Shown: piece after piece, positions 45,335-64,000 of the stretch
How positions within the stretch are numbered: position 1 is the first letter of the stretch
How the letters are laid out: every line of letters starts with the position of its first letter
Assembly: GCA_001051155.2 (NCBI GenBank)
Contig: JYIP02000010.1
Location: 186,001 to 250,000 of the forward strand
Origin: Chrysoporthe austroafricana
Taxonomy: Eukaryota; Ascomycota; Sordariomycetes; Diaporthales; Cryphonectriaceae
Direction of reading: 5' to 3'
Length of the DNA stretch: 64,000 bases
The notes under the pieces: model-generated
What the model was told of the DNA's origin: nothing
Seen by the model: only the letters and a program-made list of their open reading frames with translations
Databases searched by the model: none
Made by a program: the position numbers and the translations under genes

Positions 45335-47086
45335 TCAAATTCTACACCACGCCAACTTGTCCACCACGTCTGCTTGAACCTCCAAGGATGCATCTTCGAT
45401 TCCATTCTTTCTCACCATGGCCACGCATCTCTTGACGGCTTCCAATACTTTTGTTCCAGCTTGGTGAGTTAGAATTGCCATTGCACCCGGTTGATCTAAG
45501 AGGTCCTCCAATGATGGTACTTCGGTCACGCCATTCGTCATTTCTGCTGCGTCCAGTTTCTTGCTTAGGCCAGTAATGGTAAATTGAGAATGCAGTGCAA
45601 CCAGAGATTTCCATGCCATCAGCTCGACTAGAATGCAGGCGAGTGCGTACATATCGAACCTCTTCTGATACGTCTCGCGTTGTGCACCTCGAGCCTGGGG
45701 GTGCCGATACAGCTCTTCTACCAGGCGACCTTCTGGCAATTGTGTGAATGCTTGCGCAGATTCTGGGCTGTCTGGACGGGCATATTCGTATCCCACAAGG
45801 AACGGTTCTGTTTGCAGGATGTCTTCCGACTTCGACCCTTTTTTCGCCAGGAAAACAACGTTCTCAGGGCGCAACGACTTGTGCATCCAGCCTGCCGTGT
45901 GCAACTGGAGCACCGCCTGTGCGATATTGCGCCCAATGCTGAGACGCCGAGCGAGGCATACGCAATGCACATCTGCAATGAGCTGCTCTAAAGTCGTTAT
46001 CTCGAGATCGTAGGAGTTTTGCGGAACGGAAAATATGATAGCGTGGCGTCCAGCATCTTGTTTGTGGAGAGAGCCTGCACACGGCAGCGACCGGAAAGAC
46101 TCGTGGTTCAGAGACATCAACAATACGGCAAGACACTTCGTCTGCTTCTCGTATCTTTCCCATTCGACACCTTCGGCAACCTTCCACTGGATGAGGACCG
46201 GTTCGTCCTGATACAGGGCCAGTTCAATTCCGATCTGCTGCAACTCCGTCCCGGGGCGAGATCGCACGTTCTTGTACTTGAGCTTCTTCAGTGTCGGCAT
46301 GAAAGCAGGGGCCTTCTTGAATGCAGGTGTCTCCTCGTCTTCGCGCTTGTCCGCACTCAGTACCAATCTGACCTGCTTCACATATGCCGCGGCCTTGATT
46401 GCTTCCTCTGACACATCGCTTTGGTGGTTTCCTTGCCCCACGAGCTGCTCGATCTGTCCGGCCTCGAAGGTGCCGGGACTCAGAGAAACTAGGTCACGTA
46501 GGAATTTGTTGTAGTTGCTTTTCTCGCTTTCCCACTCGGCCCGATCAAGGAGAAACTCCAGCTTATCGACTGAGCCTTTGATGTCGTCTAGGTACTGCTT
46601 CAATTTATTCCTGTCGCGGGTTGCCCAACGCAGCCTCTTCACAGCCGAATTGTTGTTCTGAATGATGTTCCCAGTGGTTGTGTATATCGTCGGCCGTAAG
46701 TAGTTTATCAGTTTCCTCATCCCTTGCTTCGGTTCTTGCACAGCTAGGCGTCTCTCTTCGGCTGTCACAATCTCCTCAGACACGTCTAAGGAGTAGCGGG
46801 TCTTCAACCTCTCAGCCGATGTCAGAGACCATAGCAGCTGCTCCAGCACTCTCGTGGCAATCTGCCAATTCACACCAGGCTTCTCTGACTGCCCGAGTCC
46901 GACTCTCTCAGACCATCGAATAAGGCGGTATTTCTCGAATTCCAGCCCTGTGCGGAGCAAGTCACCTTCTGCGCCGATATGTTGGGCAGTGTCGAAAAAT
47001 TCGAAAGCCTGCACACAGCCTTGAAATGACTGAAAGGCAAAGGATATCAGGCTGACGGCCGTCGCGGCAACGTCAATTCCAGCCAT
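45335..47086 (-). CDS. HeLo-domain pseudokinase
   Basis: Single exon of 583 residues from the ATG at 47086 (13 codons upstream in the same frame lack an ATG). Residues 1 to about 220 match the HeLo (prion-inhibition and propagation) domain: MAGIDVAATAVSLIS, a CVQAFEFFDTAQ helix and the hallmark KYRLIRWSERVGL, followed by amphipathic helices. Residues about 280-583 have kinase-fold order but dead motifs: the HRD position reads HKS (402-404, in MHKSLRPENVVF) and the DFG position reads GYE (432-434). A putative ATP-Lys equivalent may be in LIQWK. HeLo domains, as in HET-S, attack membranes when activated by a partner. Here the dead kinase could hold or sense the trigger. It is divergently paired with the kinase-ankyrin gene. 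Confidence 0.87.
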   Translation of the reverse strand: MAGIDVAATAVSLISFAFQSFQGCVQAFEFFDTAQHIGAEGDLLRTGLEFEKYRLIRWSERVGLGQSEKPGVNWQIATRVLEQLLWSLTSAERLKTRYSLDVSEEIVTAEERRLAVQEPKQGMRKLINYLRPTIYTTTGNIIQNNNSAVKRLRWATRDRNKLKQYLDDIKGSVDKLEFLLDRAEWESEKSNYNKFLRDLVSLSPGTFEAGQIEQLVGQGNHQSDVSEEAIKAAAYVKQVRLVLSADKREDEETPAFKKAPAFMPTLKKLKYKNVRSRPGTELQQIGIELALYQDEPVLIQWKVAEGVEWERYEKQTKCLAVLLMSLNHESFRSLPCAGSLHKQDAGRHAIIFSVPQNSYDLEITTLEQLIADVHCVCLARRLSIGRNIAQAVLQLHTAGWMHKSLRPENVVFLAKKGSKSEDILQTEPFLVGYEYARPDSPESAQAFTQLPEGRLVEELYRHPQARGAQRETYQKRFDMYALACILVELMAWKSLVALHSQFTITGLSKKLDAAEMTNGVTEVPSLEDLLDQPGAMAILTHQAGTKVLEAVKRCVAMVRKNGIEDASLEVQADVVDKLAWCRI

Positions 47087-47487
47087 GGTCACACCTCCAG
47101 GTGTGTTGTGCTCGAAGACTTCCACGACATAAGCAAAATAAATCTGACAGGCCCCGCGCGATGATGCCTAAATACGGGCGCGTCACATGCATGAGCGCAC
47201 CGCAGCTTCTGCATCTCGCTAGTTTAGGACTAGTTATATATTGAATGACCTGTCCGGCCCACATTGATTCCTCATTTCGAATGGAACTGGCCTCCTACAG
47301 CCCTTGAGGGATTTTCCTACAGTCCTAGTCATTGAGGGCAACTTGCGAGGGACTCGGCTTCACTCGCATGCCTAACGACGCTAAGGCCACGAAATACTAA
47401 CTGTTTCGTAGTCAACCCGACAGACAGCTATCTTCTTAGACATCGCCTCCTCATTCTCGCCAAGCGTAGCCTTATCAGAGACGCGCG
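47087..47487. promoter_or_regulatory. Shared divergent promoter region
   Basis: The 401 bp between the start codons of the HeLo-pseudokinase (-) and kinase-ankyrin (+) genes must hold both promoters. I see no perfect palindrome or clear TATA box. The small size makes co-regulation plausible but does not prove it. Confidence 0.5.
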
Positions 47488-50400
47488 ATGTTTACTGCGG
47501 GGGCACAAGCCTTTGGCCAAGCTTCCGCAAGATGGCTCGATCAAAGCAGAAGTGGTGTTCGTCATTCCCAAGTTGACTCCGTCGTGAATGAAAAAGAGAT
47601 CGACGCACAGTTACGCAGACTATGCAATCCGTGGCATCAAGGACAACGCTCTGGCACCACGGCAACGCGAACGATCCCGAAGAGAGATATAGCGGAGTTG
47701 CGAACGTATCTGCACTATCTAGATGTCAAGGCGAATCGACAAGATGCTTACGCATGGAGTCATACTCCTCTCACCTATGCGATACTCCGGAGTATTGGAG
47801 CTCTAGACTACATGCCGTACTTCAGGCAGTACTTCAACGACTTTCACCTTCCATATAACGAACGGACTCTTCCATCCTTCCTACCAAATACCGATGGAAA
47901 TAACCTTAGACAAGCATTCCTGAAGGCGCAGCAATATTTCTTGACTGACACCAAGCGCATAGAAGCAGATGGAACTGCAGCACACTACAGTCTAGACGTA
48001 TCAGGTGATTCTCTATTCCAGCCTGTCAGGATGCTAGGGCAGGGAAGCTTTGGGTAAGTCACCTCCCCGTTTTGTCTAGCTCGGCTGACAACTTCCAGAG
48101 GAGTCGACCTGGTTTTGAGTCGCCTGAGTTTGAAATATTATGCACGTAAAAGAGTGCTGCGAGGACGAGACTCCGAGCGGAACCGCGAGTCGCAGATAGC
48201 CCTGATCAATGAGTTGAACCAGTTGAAACAGCTCTCTCACATCCACCTCGTAAAGATAATGACGAGCTATACCGATAATGAGTACATCTCATACCTCATG
48301 GAGCCTGTGGCAGACTGCACTCTCGAAGCGTTGCTTGCGACATCCAGGGCCATAACACCCGACCAAAAGAGCATGCTCAGGACGTTTTACGGTTGCCTCG
48401 CGGGAGCTGTAAACTATCTCCACCAGAACAAAATCAGACATCGAGATCTGACGGCTAGGAATATTCTCATCAAACGTGATCAAGTGTACGTTGGCGACTT
48501 TGGATCCGCTTATAACTGGTCGCATCGGACGGGAAGTGCCACACGACACCTCTATACGCCCGTTAGTCCGGATTATATGGCACCTGAGGTGGCGAAGAGG
48601 GAAGAGCGGGATTCGAAAAGCGATATGTTCTCTTTGGGTGTGGTTTTCCTCGAGATGACCACGCGATTACTCGACCGCTCAATTGGGGAACTGAAGAGAG
48701 CCCTTCAGCATCATGCAAAAAAGAACAAGTCCAGTAACTCGTACGTCTACGCCAATCTCTCTGGGGCTGTAGCGTGGCTGGATGAGCTTTGTAAAGGCAA
48801 CACAGTTGAACACGACAACGAACCCCTCGCGTGGGTGAGGTTCTTGATACAAGAAAAGCCACACAATCGACCATCGGCAATAGCTCTCATGCAGGATATC
48901 CTCGACTCGCCCTCTTTCCCAAGCTTCTGCTGTTTGAAATGCCACCATGAGTTTGAAGAGCGGGCTTTCGAATATGACACCGCAATGAACCATGAAGGAC
49001 CCTTGGTAGACTCCGTGGACACAAGGAATACTGTAGCTAGTATCTTCGGCGGACCTGGGAACAGCGACAATACCTCGCGCACGCAGCCGGAAAAGAATGA
49101 AGCAATAACGAGGTGGCTCGGAGTCTCTTCGGTAAATGAAGATCAGGCAACACCGATCACAACAGGCACTGAGACTCTACCTACTGAGCAGCAAGAAGGC
49201 CGTGGAGCTACTTTCGAGAACAACTACGTGTCCATGCCCGAGTCGTACGCCGACTGGTTCAACACTGATGGCTTTGGCGAGAGCACCCCGGGAACCGCCT
49301 ACCCTATAGAAATGATGACAACCGGACTGGCTCAAAGCACCGTTATTGAGTCGATCGTTGAATCTGTTCCAGCGGAGAACTTGGCTGGTACCGAAACCAA
49401 CGGTATGGGCCTTGACTATGATAGTCACGACACTGAGAGGGTTTTCCGGGATACAGGGCTTGGTTTCCGGGAATGGGGCAGCAGTGATTCGGAAGACGAG
49501 TCTGGGAATCAACTATTTGAAGAAGTCTCGGACGATTCGGACACTAGCTCTGACGACGCAACGGAAACTGGGCTGTCGAAGAACGGGCCTGGGACCCGCA
49601 ATTTAGGGATCATTTTGGAGGTTGACGAGGCTTCTGACAGTGGAGCAGAAGCCAATGCTTTGCATCAAGATTCTAAAGACCAACATCTATTCGAGGAAAT
49701 CTCCGACGATTCTTCAGACGAACAGCAAGATGGCCCTGAGCCCTCCGAGCCACCAAACTTGGACACAACCGAAATCGTCAATGCGGGCATCCTTTCTGCG
49801 GGCCTACCTCCACAGGATGAGTTGCCGGCACCTATTCATGCACAAATGGAGGGTGAGAAAGAAATATCAGGAGTGCGCATCATACAGAGCAGCTCCAAGA
49901 ACGATGCCTTCAAGTCTACTCAATCCAGCGATATGAACAATGTCACTTGTCAGGTCAAAGGAGAACCCATGATCTACAACTCAGAACCTCTTGATCCACA
50001 ACAGCTTGCGACTCCGCAAACATTGGATGTGAAGAATGTATCAGAGGCGATCTTGGATCAACCAAAAAGCCATCACAGCAATGAGCAAGAAGAGGTTGAC
50101 TCAGCTCGGAAGTCGCGTCAAGAAGCACGCGGAGCTCGGGCGATCCGCTTCGAGGTTCCTCATACAGAATCACTGTCTGAATCCAATTCACTGATTGATG
50201 AGGAGACTTCCACGCACTTTGTTACACAAGGTCATTCTTCAGGGCTCCCAGTAACGATAGACCGCCCGATCAAACAGGATGTGAAGCGACCAACACCATC
50301 TGAAACACGTTATCCTTCTAAAGCAAATCATGCAGCAGGTGGGGATGACGAACACGCTCCTGAACAAGCTCCTGCAGAGCACCAGCCAAAAGGTAATACC

Positions 50401-52368
50401 CTTGGGAGTGGTCAGTTCTTCATGCATAAATCCTCGCCGCAGCCGAAGGGACAAGGAACGTCCAACCCGAATGAGAGGCTTGCGAGACTAGGCAAACAGC
50501 CACCTACTCTCGATTCACCTGGTGAAGGCGTCCAGCACAGCTCTGTTAAACCAGAACATTGTGTTACATCAGAGCCAAATACGACCTTAGACCATTCTCC
50601 GGATCTAAATATTGAGGGCATGGCTAGAACCAGAAACCACGGTCCTGTGACAGCTAAGCCCGTCTCCGCAACAAATACCACAGGCGGCGCTGAGCACCAA
50701 CTTGATCCTCCATCATATTTGAATACCGGGACGACGGAGGAAACGACCGAGAAAGACACCAAGAACGCCAAGAAAGAGAAACGTCAGACATCGGAACATG
50801 TTCGGAGCGCGAAAAGCAAACCTACAAACGCAGCTCCCAAGGCTGATCCCTTGTCAAAAGCTAATTTGCAGGCTCTGAACAAGAGTAATGAGCAAAGCAA
50901 ATCTCAATTGGACTCCCTGCAATCGTTGCCACCGTCCGAAGACTCCAAGCACAAGTCAAAAGATACACAGGCCAATGAAGCAAAGCTCGATGTCGAACAC
51001 CTAGGTATTCAAGGAAGCGTCCCAGCCTCGGGCAAAGCAGACACTAAGAGTAACACGAACCCGGGGACCTTCTCAAAACCAGCTGGAATTAAAAAGCAAA
51101 CTTCTGAGACCAAAGGAGCATCGTCATCACCCAGAAGTCCTCGAAATCGTGACGCGCTGCCGCCAATCAACGTGAAAGCCCTTCTGAAGACAACGTGGGA
51201 AACTGCTTCGGCGCCGACATCCACCATGTCAGAGACAACCAAGAAGAAGCTATCAAATATTCTTGTCCCGTACAATAGCTTTGATATGACCCATAGCCTG
51301 CTTCTGCATTATTGCACAGAGGGAAAGGCAAGTGCAGTTAAGTACCTCTTGCAAAAAGGATGTAATCCCGGCACGAAGCAGCATCCTCGCCGCGGGCCAC
51401 TTCTTGCAGCCATTCGAGGCGCCACCGAGAGGCACAACAAATGCGTTCGGGAGCTCATAAAATACGATGTTGACGTCAACGTGAGAAGCAAGAAGTCCAG
51501 AGACCCTGCGCTACACCTCGCGATTGAGAATGCCAGTTCCAATAGCTACGTCAAACTAATCTGGTTGCTTGTCAATGCTGGAGCAAATTTGGATAAACCC
51601 GATGGGAATGGAGACTCCGCGTTGACTAAGTTGTTCTCTGGGGCCGACTCGCGGCCCTTGGAAAAGCACCGTCTTGAAGCTCTGGCTCTGCTTCTGCAAG
51701 GTGGTGTGGAAGTGAACCAGCACGCTCCAGGCACAGGGAATACACCCCTTCATCTGGCTGTACGCCGTAAAGACAAGTGGGCCGTTGCAATGCTCCTTTA
51801 CAAAGGTGCAGATGTCAACGCAAAGAACTTTTCCGGCTCGACTCCTTTACAATTGACAGCGAACCAGTTTCGGGGTGATCTAAGCCCTGATCATGCCCAG
51901 GTCCTGGATCTTCTGCTCGAAGCCAATGCATCAATTGACGAGAGGGCCGGTGCGCTCAACCGCACCGCTCTTCACCTCGCCGTTGTCTCAGGTACAGCAT
52001 ATGCTGTCAGACTTCTATTAGATCGTGGTGCCGATCCGTCGTTGGTTGACAGTGAGGGCAGAAATGCCATACAGCTGGCAATCAAAGGAGCCGGCAAGCT
52101 CACGTCTGACCCGCATAGGGTGGAGGATCATGTCGAGATCATGGACCGACTGGTTAGAATCCTTGGAGAACCCTGGGAAACGGTCAAACAGAAGTCCAAC
52201 GGAATGTGTCCTGTCGAAGCTGCGTGTTCTGAAGGCGGCCTGGATCTGTTGCGTACGTTGGTGGTCAAAGGCAAGCTTGACAGAAAGTCAAAGTTTAAGG
52301 ACGGGACAATTCTATCACTGGCTGAGAGCAAAGGCATTCCAGAGGCCGTGGAACTCCTGAAAACATAG
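47488..52368 (+). CDS. Ser/Thr protein kinase with long acidic linker and C-terminal ankyrin repeats
   Basis: Exons 47488-48053 and 48099-52368 (45-nt intron, splitting the glycine loop) encode 1611 residues. Residues 1-175 are a helical N-terminal region common in fungal kinases of this type. The kinase domain (about 176-480) looks active: GQGSFGG, Lys in YYARKRV (about 206), HRDLTARN (303 onward), DFG (322-324), and APE (350-352). A CCLKCHHEF Cys/His cluster follows. Residues about 500-1230 are low-complexity and acidic/Ser-rich, with a duplicated LFEE(V/I)SDDS motif. Residues about 1240-1611 are ankyrin repeats (TPLHLAVRRKDKWAVAMLLYKGADVNA, ALHLAV..YAVRLLLDRGAD). Likely a signalling kinase whose ankyrins bind a partner. 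Its divergent neighbour is a HeLo-pseudokinase, a plausible substrate (inference). Confidence 0.9.
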
Positions 52369-62461: not shown

Positions 62462-62479
62462 GGCAAGATGGCCGAGCGG

Positions 62480-62533
62480 GTAAGCATCACCTACGCATCC
62501 ATCTGAACGCTCCTTGCCTAACAATGTCTCCAG
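62480..62533 (+). other. 54-nt spliceosomal-type intron in the tRNA D-loop
   Basis: The insertion begins GTAAGC, has a TGCCTAAC branch-site-like motif 15-20 nt before its end, and ends in CCAG. Excision joins GAGCGG to TCTAAGG, the usual tRNA-Leu D-loop. Size and signals match the protein-gene introns of this window (45-99 nt). It lies directly behind the complete A box. Confidence 0.8.
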
Positions 62534-62553
62534 TCTAAGGCGCCACGTTCAGG

Positions 62554-62572
62554 TCTTCAGCTTGAACATACT
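62554..62572 (+). other. Canonical tRNA intron (19 nt)
   Basis: Placed between positions 37 and 38 of the anticodon loop, as in ordinary nuclear tRNA introns processed by the tRNA splicing endonuclease. Confidence 0.8.
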
Positions 62573-62616
62573 TCGTGGTCTCGAAAGAGGCGGGAGTTCG
62601 AATCTCCCTCTTGTCA

Positions 62617-62628
62617 TTTTACTTTTTT
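62617..62628 (+). terminator. Pol III terminator (T4 then T6)
   Basis: TTTT follows the discriminator base immediately, and a T6 run follows within 10 nt. Confidence 0.8.
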
Positions 62629-63043: not shown

Positions 63044-64000
63044 ATGAAACCATATAAAGAAAATGAAGTTCATCAGGCCCTCGAGGCTATCAGAAAACGC
63101 CAGTCTATACGGAAAGCCTCGATCGAATGGGGGGTTCCGAGGGCTACCCTTCAACATCGCCTTGCTGGGAAAGAACGACGTGAAATAGCCCACGAATCAA
63201 GACAAAGGCTCTCTATTGACCAAGAACGACGGCTAGCTGAATGGATTCTTTTGCAAGAAAGCCTAGGGCTCTCGCCTAGCCATTCAGATCTTAGGATTTT
63301 TGCTCAGAAGATCCTATCTATCAGAGGGGACCTTCAACCTTTAGGGAAGAGATGGACTGAATCTTTTTTACGGCGAAATCCAGGCATACAGGTTAGAAAG
63401 GCTCGTCGGATTGCTTCAGCCCGGACCAATAGGGCTACAATCGAAATAATTCAACGTTGGTTCCGTCTGCTCGATATGCCTCGCCTTCAGCCAATCAAGC
63501 CAGCTAACCGATGGAATATGGACGAAGCTGGAATAATTGAAGGCCAAGGAGAGAATGGCTTAATCCTGGGAGGGTCTTCTTCGCGTCCGATACAGAAAAA
63601 AGAGCCTGGTTCTCGAGCTTGGACCTCTTTTCTCGAATGCATATCAGCTGCCGGCATTTCTCTTCCTCCTCTGGTAATATTCAAAGGAAAATCTGTACAG
63701 CAACAATAGTTTCCTTTGGATATAGAACCTTTCAGAAGCTGGCAATTTACTGCTACGAAAAACGGCTGGACGGATAATGATACGGCGCTCGAATGGCTGC
63801 AAAAGATCTTTATTCCGAATAGCCAGCCAGACGACCCTTCCGAAACCAGGTTATTGATCTTGGATGGCCACGGCAGCCACGCAACAGCTGATTTATGTGG
63901 GAATGCTTCCAAAACAATATTCTATTACTTTATTTGCCCCCTTATACTTCACACGTTCTTCAACCTTTAGATCTAAGCGTCTTCTCTTCTCTCAAGAGGG
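63044..64000 (+). mobile_element. Degraded pogo/Fot1-type DDE transposase, 3' end outside window
   Basis: Residues 1-60 hold a psq/CENP-B-type helix-turn-helix (RKASIEWGVPRATLQHRL). Residues about 65-125 hold the second Tc5-type DNA-binding domain. The DDE domain begins with RWNMDEAGI (first Asp), continues with PPLVIFKGKSVQQQ, and after a stop reads RLLILDGHGSHATAD (second Asp). The frame is broken twice: TAG at 63707-63709, where the family normally has Trp (QQQ-W-FP), and a one-base shift near 63894, after which the family text continues in another frame to the window end (TSHVLQPLDLSVF). It is therefore an inactive relic, or inactive unless read through. The TGG-to-TAG change is CpA-to-TpA on the other strand, as in repeat-induced point mutation. 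Confidence 0.85.

Follow-up and report, generated by a model that had tools for sequence, protein, structure and literature searches.

Probable spliceosomal introns in the D loop of three tRNA-Leu genes of Chrysoporthe austroafricana

A tRNA-Leu gene with two interruptions

The window (the whole 64,000-nucleotide stretch of contig JYIP02000010.1 that was analysed) contains a 155-nt gene at 62462-62616 that gives an 82-nt tRNA-Leu with the anticodon CAG after removal of a 54-nt insert and a 19-nt intron (Table 1). The insert is located between G19 and U20, immediately 3' of the A box, which spans tRNA positions 8-19 (PMC3978253). It is thus not at the canonical site of tRNA introns, one base 3' of the anticodon, where the gene has a separate canonical intron. 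On reading the sequence, the insert has two equivalent placements that are 1 base apart (a G lies on either side), and the GT-AG frame is one of them. ARAGORN identified the spliced gene as tRNA-Leu(cag) with a 19-nt intron, whereas the unspliced gene was called Ser with a 77-nt intron; when the whole window was scanned with the settings used, ARAGORN reported zero tRNA genes. These results agree with the initial annotation, which had recovered a tRNA-Leu(CAG) only after removing the 54 nt and whose sequence and coordinates for this gene were confirmed on re-reading. All the features expected of a functional Pol III tRNA gene are present, namely an A box, a B box, a T-run terminator and a cloverleaf; the segment that we take to be the B box is assigned by its consensus.

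Approximately 430 bases behind the tRNA gene starts an ORF in which the Tc5 and Psq helix-turn-helix domains are accompanied by the beginning of a DDE_1 match slightly below the cut-off, presumably a Fot/Pogo-like transposase fragment. Elsewhere in the window, a gene for a protein with a HeLo (prion-inhibition) domain and a sub-threshold kinase match lies beside a 1417-aa kinase-ankyrin repeat ORF, and the two are possibly fungal immunity or heterokaryon-incompatibility genes. The four best matches of the HeLo protein have 63-79% identity, and the best named ones are from Coniella lustricola (74%, partial) and Diaporthe citri (60%), both Diaporthales.

Table 1. Parts of the interrupted tRNA-Leu(CAG) gene and other features of the window
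Feature	Position	Strand	Basis
Exon 1: acceptor strand, D-stem 5' half, through G18G19	62462..62479	+	sequence
A box TGGCCGAGCGG, intact, last base abutting the 5' splice site	62469..62479	+	pattern match position
D-loop insert, 54 nt, spliceosomal-type intron (probable)	62480..62533	+	empty sites in paralogues, same-site inserts, rule test
5' splice site GTAAGC	62480..62485	+	sequence; GTAAG in C9, GTACG in C1
CTAAC, branch-point-like, 11 nt before insert end	62518..62522	+	in all three inserts
3' splice site CAG	62531..62533	+	sequence
Exon 2: remaining D arm, anticodon stem 5' strand, anticodon CAG	62534..62553	+	ARAGORN, sequence
Ordinary anticodon-loop intron, 19 nt, after position 37	62554..62572	+	ARAGORN on spliced sequence
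Exon 3: anticodon stem 3' strand, variable arm, T arm, acceptor, discriminator A	62573..62616	+	ARAGORN, pairing
Presumed B box AGTTCGAATCT	62595..62605	+	sequence
Pol III terminator-like T runs (TTTT, later TTTTTT)	62617..62628	+	sequence
ORF, transposase fragment (presumed)	63044..63709	+	Tc5, Psq domains
HeLo-domain gene	45335..47125	-	HeLo domain
Kinase-ankyrin repeat ORF	48115..52368	+	

The Leu(CAG) and Leu(CAA) genes of the genome

We searched the genome (48,151,211 bases in 22 contigs) with the region of the window gene, using a search that scores the best candidates and skips very common words. Five places were found, all of them tRNA-Leu genes, and a T-arm pattern (≤3 mismatches) returned the same five genes plus one further place with three mismatches (control, zero). 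Three of the genes are interrupted at the identical site: the window CAG gene (54 nt), a CAG gene at C9:109028 (59 nt) and a Leu(CAA) gene near C1:4895136 (58 nt), so that the insert site is common to two isoacceptors. Each of them also has a canonical anticodon-loop intron (19, 20 and 34 nt, respectively), which, judged by reading the sequences, can pair with the anticodon region. The observation is real and extends further than first reported, when one gene had been described; the recurrence of an insert at this position in two more Leu tRNA genes strengthens it decisively. Leu(CAG) copies that lack the insert, which the initial annotation had proposed to look for, were found on C21, where the A box is at 750049, and on C22, where it is at 196069; both have the empty site GAGCGG/TCCAAGG. 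The sequence of exon 1 is the same in all five genes.

When the spliced C1 gene was submitted to ARAGORN, the program called Val(cac) and placed the 34-nt anticodon intron differently. Against this call, the sequence and the pairing assign the gene to Leu(CAA), with the loop CTCAAG and a 34-nt intron. Approximately 220 bases behind it, a second copy of its 3' tail and downstream region is present (locus L005, 1761-1890), with long T runs and one N, which looks like a partial tandem duplication. A spliced CAA query matched the C1 locus only. A 17-base exon pattern (≤2 mismatches) gave one exact and seven inexact places (control, 4); three of the inexact places, on C12, C16 and C17, were considered as further Leu(CAA) genes and rejected, as ARAGORN found no tRNA there. 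The genome-wide T-arm pattern (≤3 mismatches) did not reveal a second Leu(CAA) gene either. As far as searched, and given that the assembly may be incomplete, Leu(CAA) thus appears to be a single-copy gene, and this single copy is interrupted. Two loci on C19 and C16 (L028 and L029), called Leu(caa) and Ser(cga) by ARAGORN with introns of 30-33 nt, seem by their sequence to be intron-containing tRNA-Met(CAU), the calls being errors of intron placement.

Further cases were sought with patterns. An A box followed by GTRNG at one-base spacing occurred at 45 places in the genome (75 for the reversed control pattern). Thirty of them were scanned with ARAGORN, with trial splicing where CTRAY and YAG followed the donor, and four more were inspected by eye; among these 34 of the 45 places, no D-loop-interrupted tRNA was found beyond the three Leu genes. 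A narrower pattern with two-base spacing occurred at 3 places (control, 5), all of which were judged by eye not to be tRNAs. The acceptor-side pattern CTAAC...AGTNNAAGGCG matched the three interrupted genes and 2 other places (control, 8). Pattern scans of viral contigs and genome contigs gave no relative of the interrupted gene among the matches listed; 126 loci were scanned in all (123 from these patterns and 3 from the Leu(CAA) search), and the four that were viewed were not tRNA-like by eye. With two further viral-contig patterns, one had no match and the other gave three loci that were likewise not tRNA-like by eye.

The Rfam tRNA model detected both uninterrupted CAG genes (46.0 and 45.8 bits) but, at E ≤0.1, did not detect any of the three that are interrupted; in the genome-wide search with this model 63 of 1207 candidates were scored, so the tRNA set is partial. 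If the interrupted genes work, standard tRNA models can miss working genes, since this one missed all three.

The extent of the matches bears on the possibility that the genes are read mainly within longer Pol II transcripts, where the intron would serve the transcript or the release of the tRNA from it. Spliceosomal introns normally reside in Pol II transcripts, and a GMC oxidoreductase coding stretch lies upstream of the window gene on the + strand. However, the position of the intron is tied to the tRNA and not to the flanks: the matches on C9, C21, C22 and C1 start ≤1 base from the tRNA 5' end and run either to its 3' end or no more than about 18 bases into the T-rich tail. Moreover, TTTT stands directly behind all five genes. 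We consider Pol II transcription as the main source of these tRNAs very unlikely.

Splice signals, insert interiors and mature tRNAs

Fungal introns typically have the donor GTANG and the branch-point sequence CTAAC at a usual distance from the 3' AG. The donors of the inserts are GTAAG (window and C9) and GTACG (C1), CTAAC lies 11, 11 and 13 nt 5' of the insert end, and the 3' ends are CAG, TAG and CAG (window, C9 and C1, respectively). All three inserts thus have the GT...AG borders with GTANG and the CTAAC at the usual distance that characterize U2-type introns; in addition, precise excision leaves an intact product and the interiors have diverged. When the three inserts were shuffled by single bases, 0, 1 and 0 of 300,000 shuffles conformed to the rule GTANG...CTAAC(4-20 nt)YAG with its ends fixed. 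A looser rule that also allowed CTGAC was satisfied in the window by 1 of 127,892 54-nt stretches (the window insert is such a stretch), 0 of 127,882 59-nt stretches and 1 of 127,884 58-nt stretches. Layouts of the GTANG..CTAAC..YAG type were enriched in the window, with 10 counts, which include the window insert and nested starts, against a mean of 3.56 and a maximum of 8 in 50 shuffles; in these 10 layouts the median distance after CTAAC was 11 nt.

We then compared the interiors of the inserts, omitting the first 6 and last 20 bases of each. In pairwise alignments, 19/38, 16/33 and 19/38 columns matched, compared to shuffle means of 0.49, 0.51 and 0.51. The interiors are as unlike as shuffled sequence while the donor, branch-point and acceptor signals are kept. 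This divergence argues against a recent burst of introners, elements that would account for intron gain in many genes. Introners form near-identical families at many sites, whereas here the region search matched only Leu tRNA genes among its best candidates and the three interiors are dissimilar, so an introner-like element was rejected. The initial annotation had also considered a recent introner-like insertion that silenced this copy; this found no support, as the interiors are at the shuffled level and the stems of the host tRNAs all pair. Its other suggestion, that an intron of the spliceosomal type interrupts a Pol III gene whose A box is intact, gained support from the three copies, the two isoacceptors and the intact spliced products.

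The two CAG inserts match at 14 of their last 16 nt. This likeness means that they are related and not fully independent cases, and the window and C9 inserts look related by descent. At mature position 21, the three interrupted genes have T and the two uninterrupted genes have C. The simplest account of the five genes would be a single old intron that came to be shared through common descent or through gene conversion affecting the 5' half; the uninterrupted CAG genes may either never have been invaded or have lost the intron. In the best reading, then, the inserts would be old rather than recent.

We also considered a non-canonical tRNA intron with a bulge-helix-bulge junction, of the kind that the tRNA splicing endonuclease removes in red algae and archaea. 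Introns outside the anticodon loop, sometimes two per gene, are described for archaea, nucleomorphs and Cyanidioschyzon, including D-arm introns in nucleomorphs and similar ones in Cyanidioschyzon; the same source attributes non-canonical introns to the splicing endonuclease, with the bulge-helix-bulge in archaea and C. merolae, and states that the cutting in nucleomorphs is unknown (PMC4090602). The interruption of the tRNA body outside the anticodon loop is shared with the genes described here, and the Sen pathway must act on the same transcripts anyway. Unlike in archaea and C. merolae, however, the junctions of the D-loop inserts have no above-chance bulge-helix-bulge: with exon offsets of 1-3 and intron offsets of 0-3, the best central helix had 3, 3 and 2 of 4 pairs, a level reached by 1393, 1063 and 1949 of 2000 shuffles. 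The minimum-energy folds of the three precursors have no common junction structure by eye, and the lack of above-chance similarity in the interiors contrasts with the conservation of GT, CTAAC and YAG. Removal of the inserts by the endonuclease therefore seems a remote prospect.

Between the mature tRNAs of the window and C9 genes, 1 of 82 bases is different, a change that keeps the pair (U-A to U-G). Over the four distinct mature sequences, a small set from which the fifth, identical to that of C22, was left out, all 92 of 92 helix cells of the cloverleaf are paired. Two-sided changes are present in 5 of 23 pairs, a level reached by 0 of 500 shuffles; the weakest measure, further pair types, was reached by 20 of 500. 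Slid-structure controls were ≤54.5% paired and had zero pairs with two-sided changes. Four of the five compensatory pairs distinguish CAA from CAG genes and may have existed before the inserts. The sole one that differs among the CAG genes is pair 59-73 in the T stem, which is G-C in the two CAG genes with an insert, U-A in the two without, and U-A again in the interrupted CAA gene. Minimum-energy folds of the spliced CAG tRNAs were not cloverleaf; the uninterrupted ones misfolded in the same way, so single-sequence folding does not separate the two sets. The position of the inserts, their signals, their recurrence in three genes, the empty sites and the intact spliced product are direct observations.

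Could the interrupted copies be decaying pseudogenes that the insert has disabled, while the intact CAG genes do the work? The two uninterrupted CAG genes have an identical mature sequence, exon likeness could be kept by gene conversion without function, and short insertions in the D or T arm of eukaryotic tRNAs are described as mostly residing in one of many synonymous genes and presumed to mark pseudogenes (PMC4090602). On the other hand, three genes from two isoacceptors carry the insert at one and the same site, one of them being the only Leu(CAA) gene found, and the A box, B box, T runs, anticodon intron and all stems are intact. We rejected the pseudogene reading in that no broken helix was found in the four distinct sequences and no broken box in the window gene. 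Near-unchanged exons next to diverged interiors with kept splice signals are hard to reconcile with decay, which we regard as improbable.

A possible role of two splicing machines in making tRNA-Leu

We think it highly probable that the D-loop inserts are U2-type spliceosomal introns within working Pol III tRNA-Leu genes. The most likely interpretation of the sequences is that these GT-AG introns in intact-looking genes are removed by the spliceosome, which suggests that the mRNA-splicing machinery is needed for making some tRNAs of this fungus. We infer that Pol III transcribes the genes and that the spliceosome removes the inserts, in the order set out here. Pol III would initiate from the intact A and B boxes, and U1, U2 and U6 would recognise GTANG, CTAAC and YAG in the precursor. 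The spliceosome would then excise the 54-59 nt and rebuild the D arm, and the tRNA endonuclease/ligase pathway would subsequently take out the anticodon intron. A first exon of 18 nt is very short for a spliceosome substrate and Pol III transcripts have no cap; both count against removal by the spliceosome. Yeast Sen54 probably contacts the D arm and the acceptor stem of the precursor (PMC3978253). If the same applies in this fungus, Sen could cut only once the D arm has been restored, which fits splicing of the D loop ahead of Sen.

The initial annotation had named a supply of the cell by other CAG copies as a point against its reading, and this applies by half: two uninterrupted CAG genes exist, so that the cell could cope with losing the interrupted CAG copies, but the one Leu(CAA) gene found is interrupted. 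Because this gene carries the intron, the cell would rely on the spliceosome for a normal supply of tRNA-Leu(CAA); UUG could also be decoded by a Leu(UAA) tRNA. We lean towards the view that transcripts of one nuclear tRNA class must each pass through two unrelated splicing machines, with the spliceosome acting on the D loop and the Sen endonuclease on the anticodon loop, and that the cell's only Leu(CAA) gene depends on this.

Introns of tRNAs and of mRNAs are treated as separate worlds with separate enzymes. According to a 2026 review, tRNA splicing is carried out by enzymes other than the spliceosome (PMC13149111); the tRNAscan-SE 2.0 paper describes eukaryotic tRNA genes as limited to one intron (PMC8450103). 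In the sources consulted, eukaryotic tRNA introns are mostly canonical and Sen-cut, with algal exceptions (PMC4090602, PMC8450103, PMC8917221, PMC13149111, PMC3978253, PMC5372738). Such an intron at 37/38 is present in each of the three genes as well, whereas the D-loop insert differs from it in its place between G19 and U20 and in its GT-AG signals. Among the matches listed in open-licence PMC (titles and starts of abstracts), no spliceosomal intron in a tRNA gene was named. If the interpretation is correct, these would be, as far as the literature was searched, the first spliceosome-dependent tRNAs; the spliceosome would be able to act on tRNA precursors made by Pol III whose first exon measures 18 nt, translation capacity would be tied to splicing, and splicing activity might be linked to the decoding of UUG codons. 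The five-gene family also offers a defined setting in which to study how spliceosomal introns originate in non-coding RNA, including reverse splicing and gain and loss between paralogues.

The U6 RNA of Schizosaccharomyces pombe originates from Pol III and has an intron of the spliceosomal type. This intron-containing U6 is the nearest precedent, and its mature and intron-containing forms are both visible on northern blots (PMC8917221). The two systems are alike in that the intron lies within a Pol III transcript, the Pol III transcription being presumed for the tRNA-Leu genes; they differ in that the host here is a tRNA with an additional canonical intron, and in that three genes are concerned. 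U6 in the genome of C. austroafricana is uninterrupted, with one 103-nt match above the cut-off and two below it.
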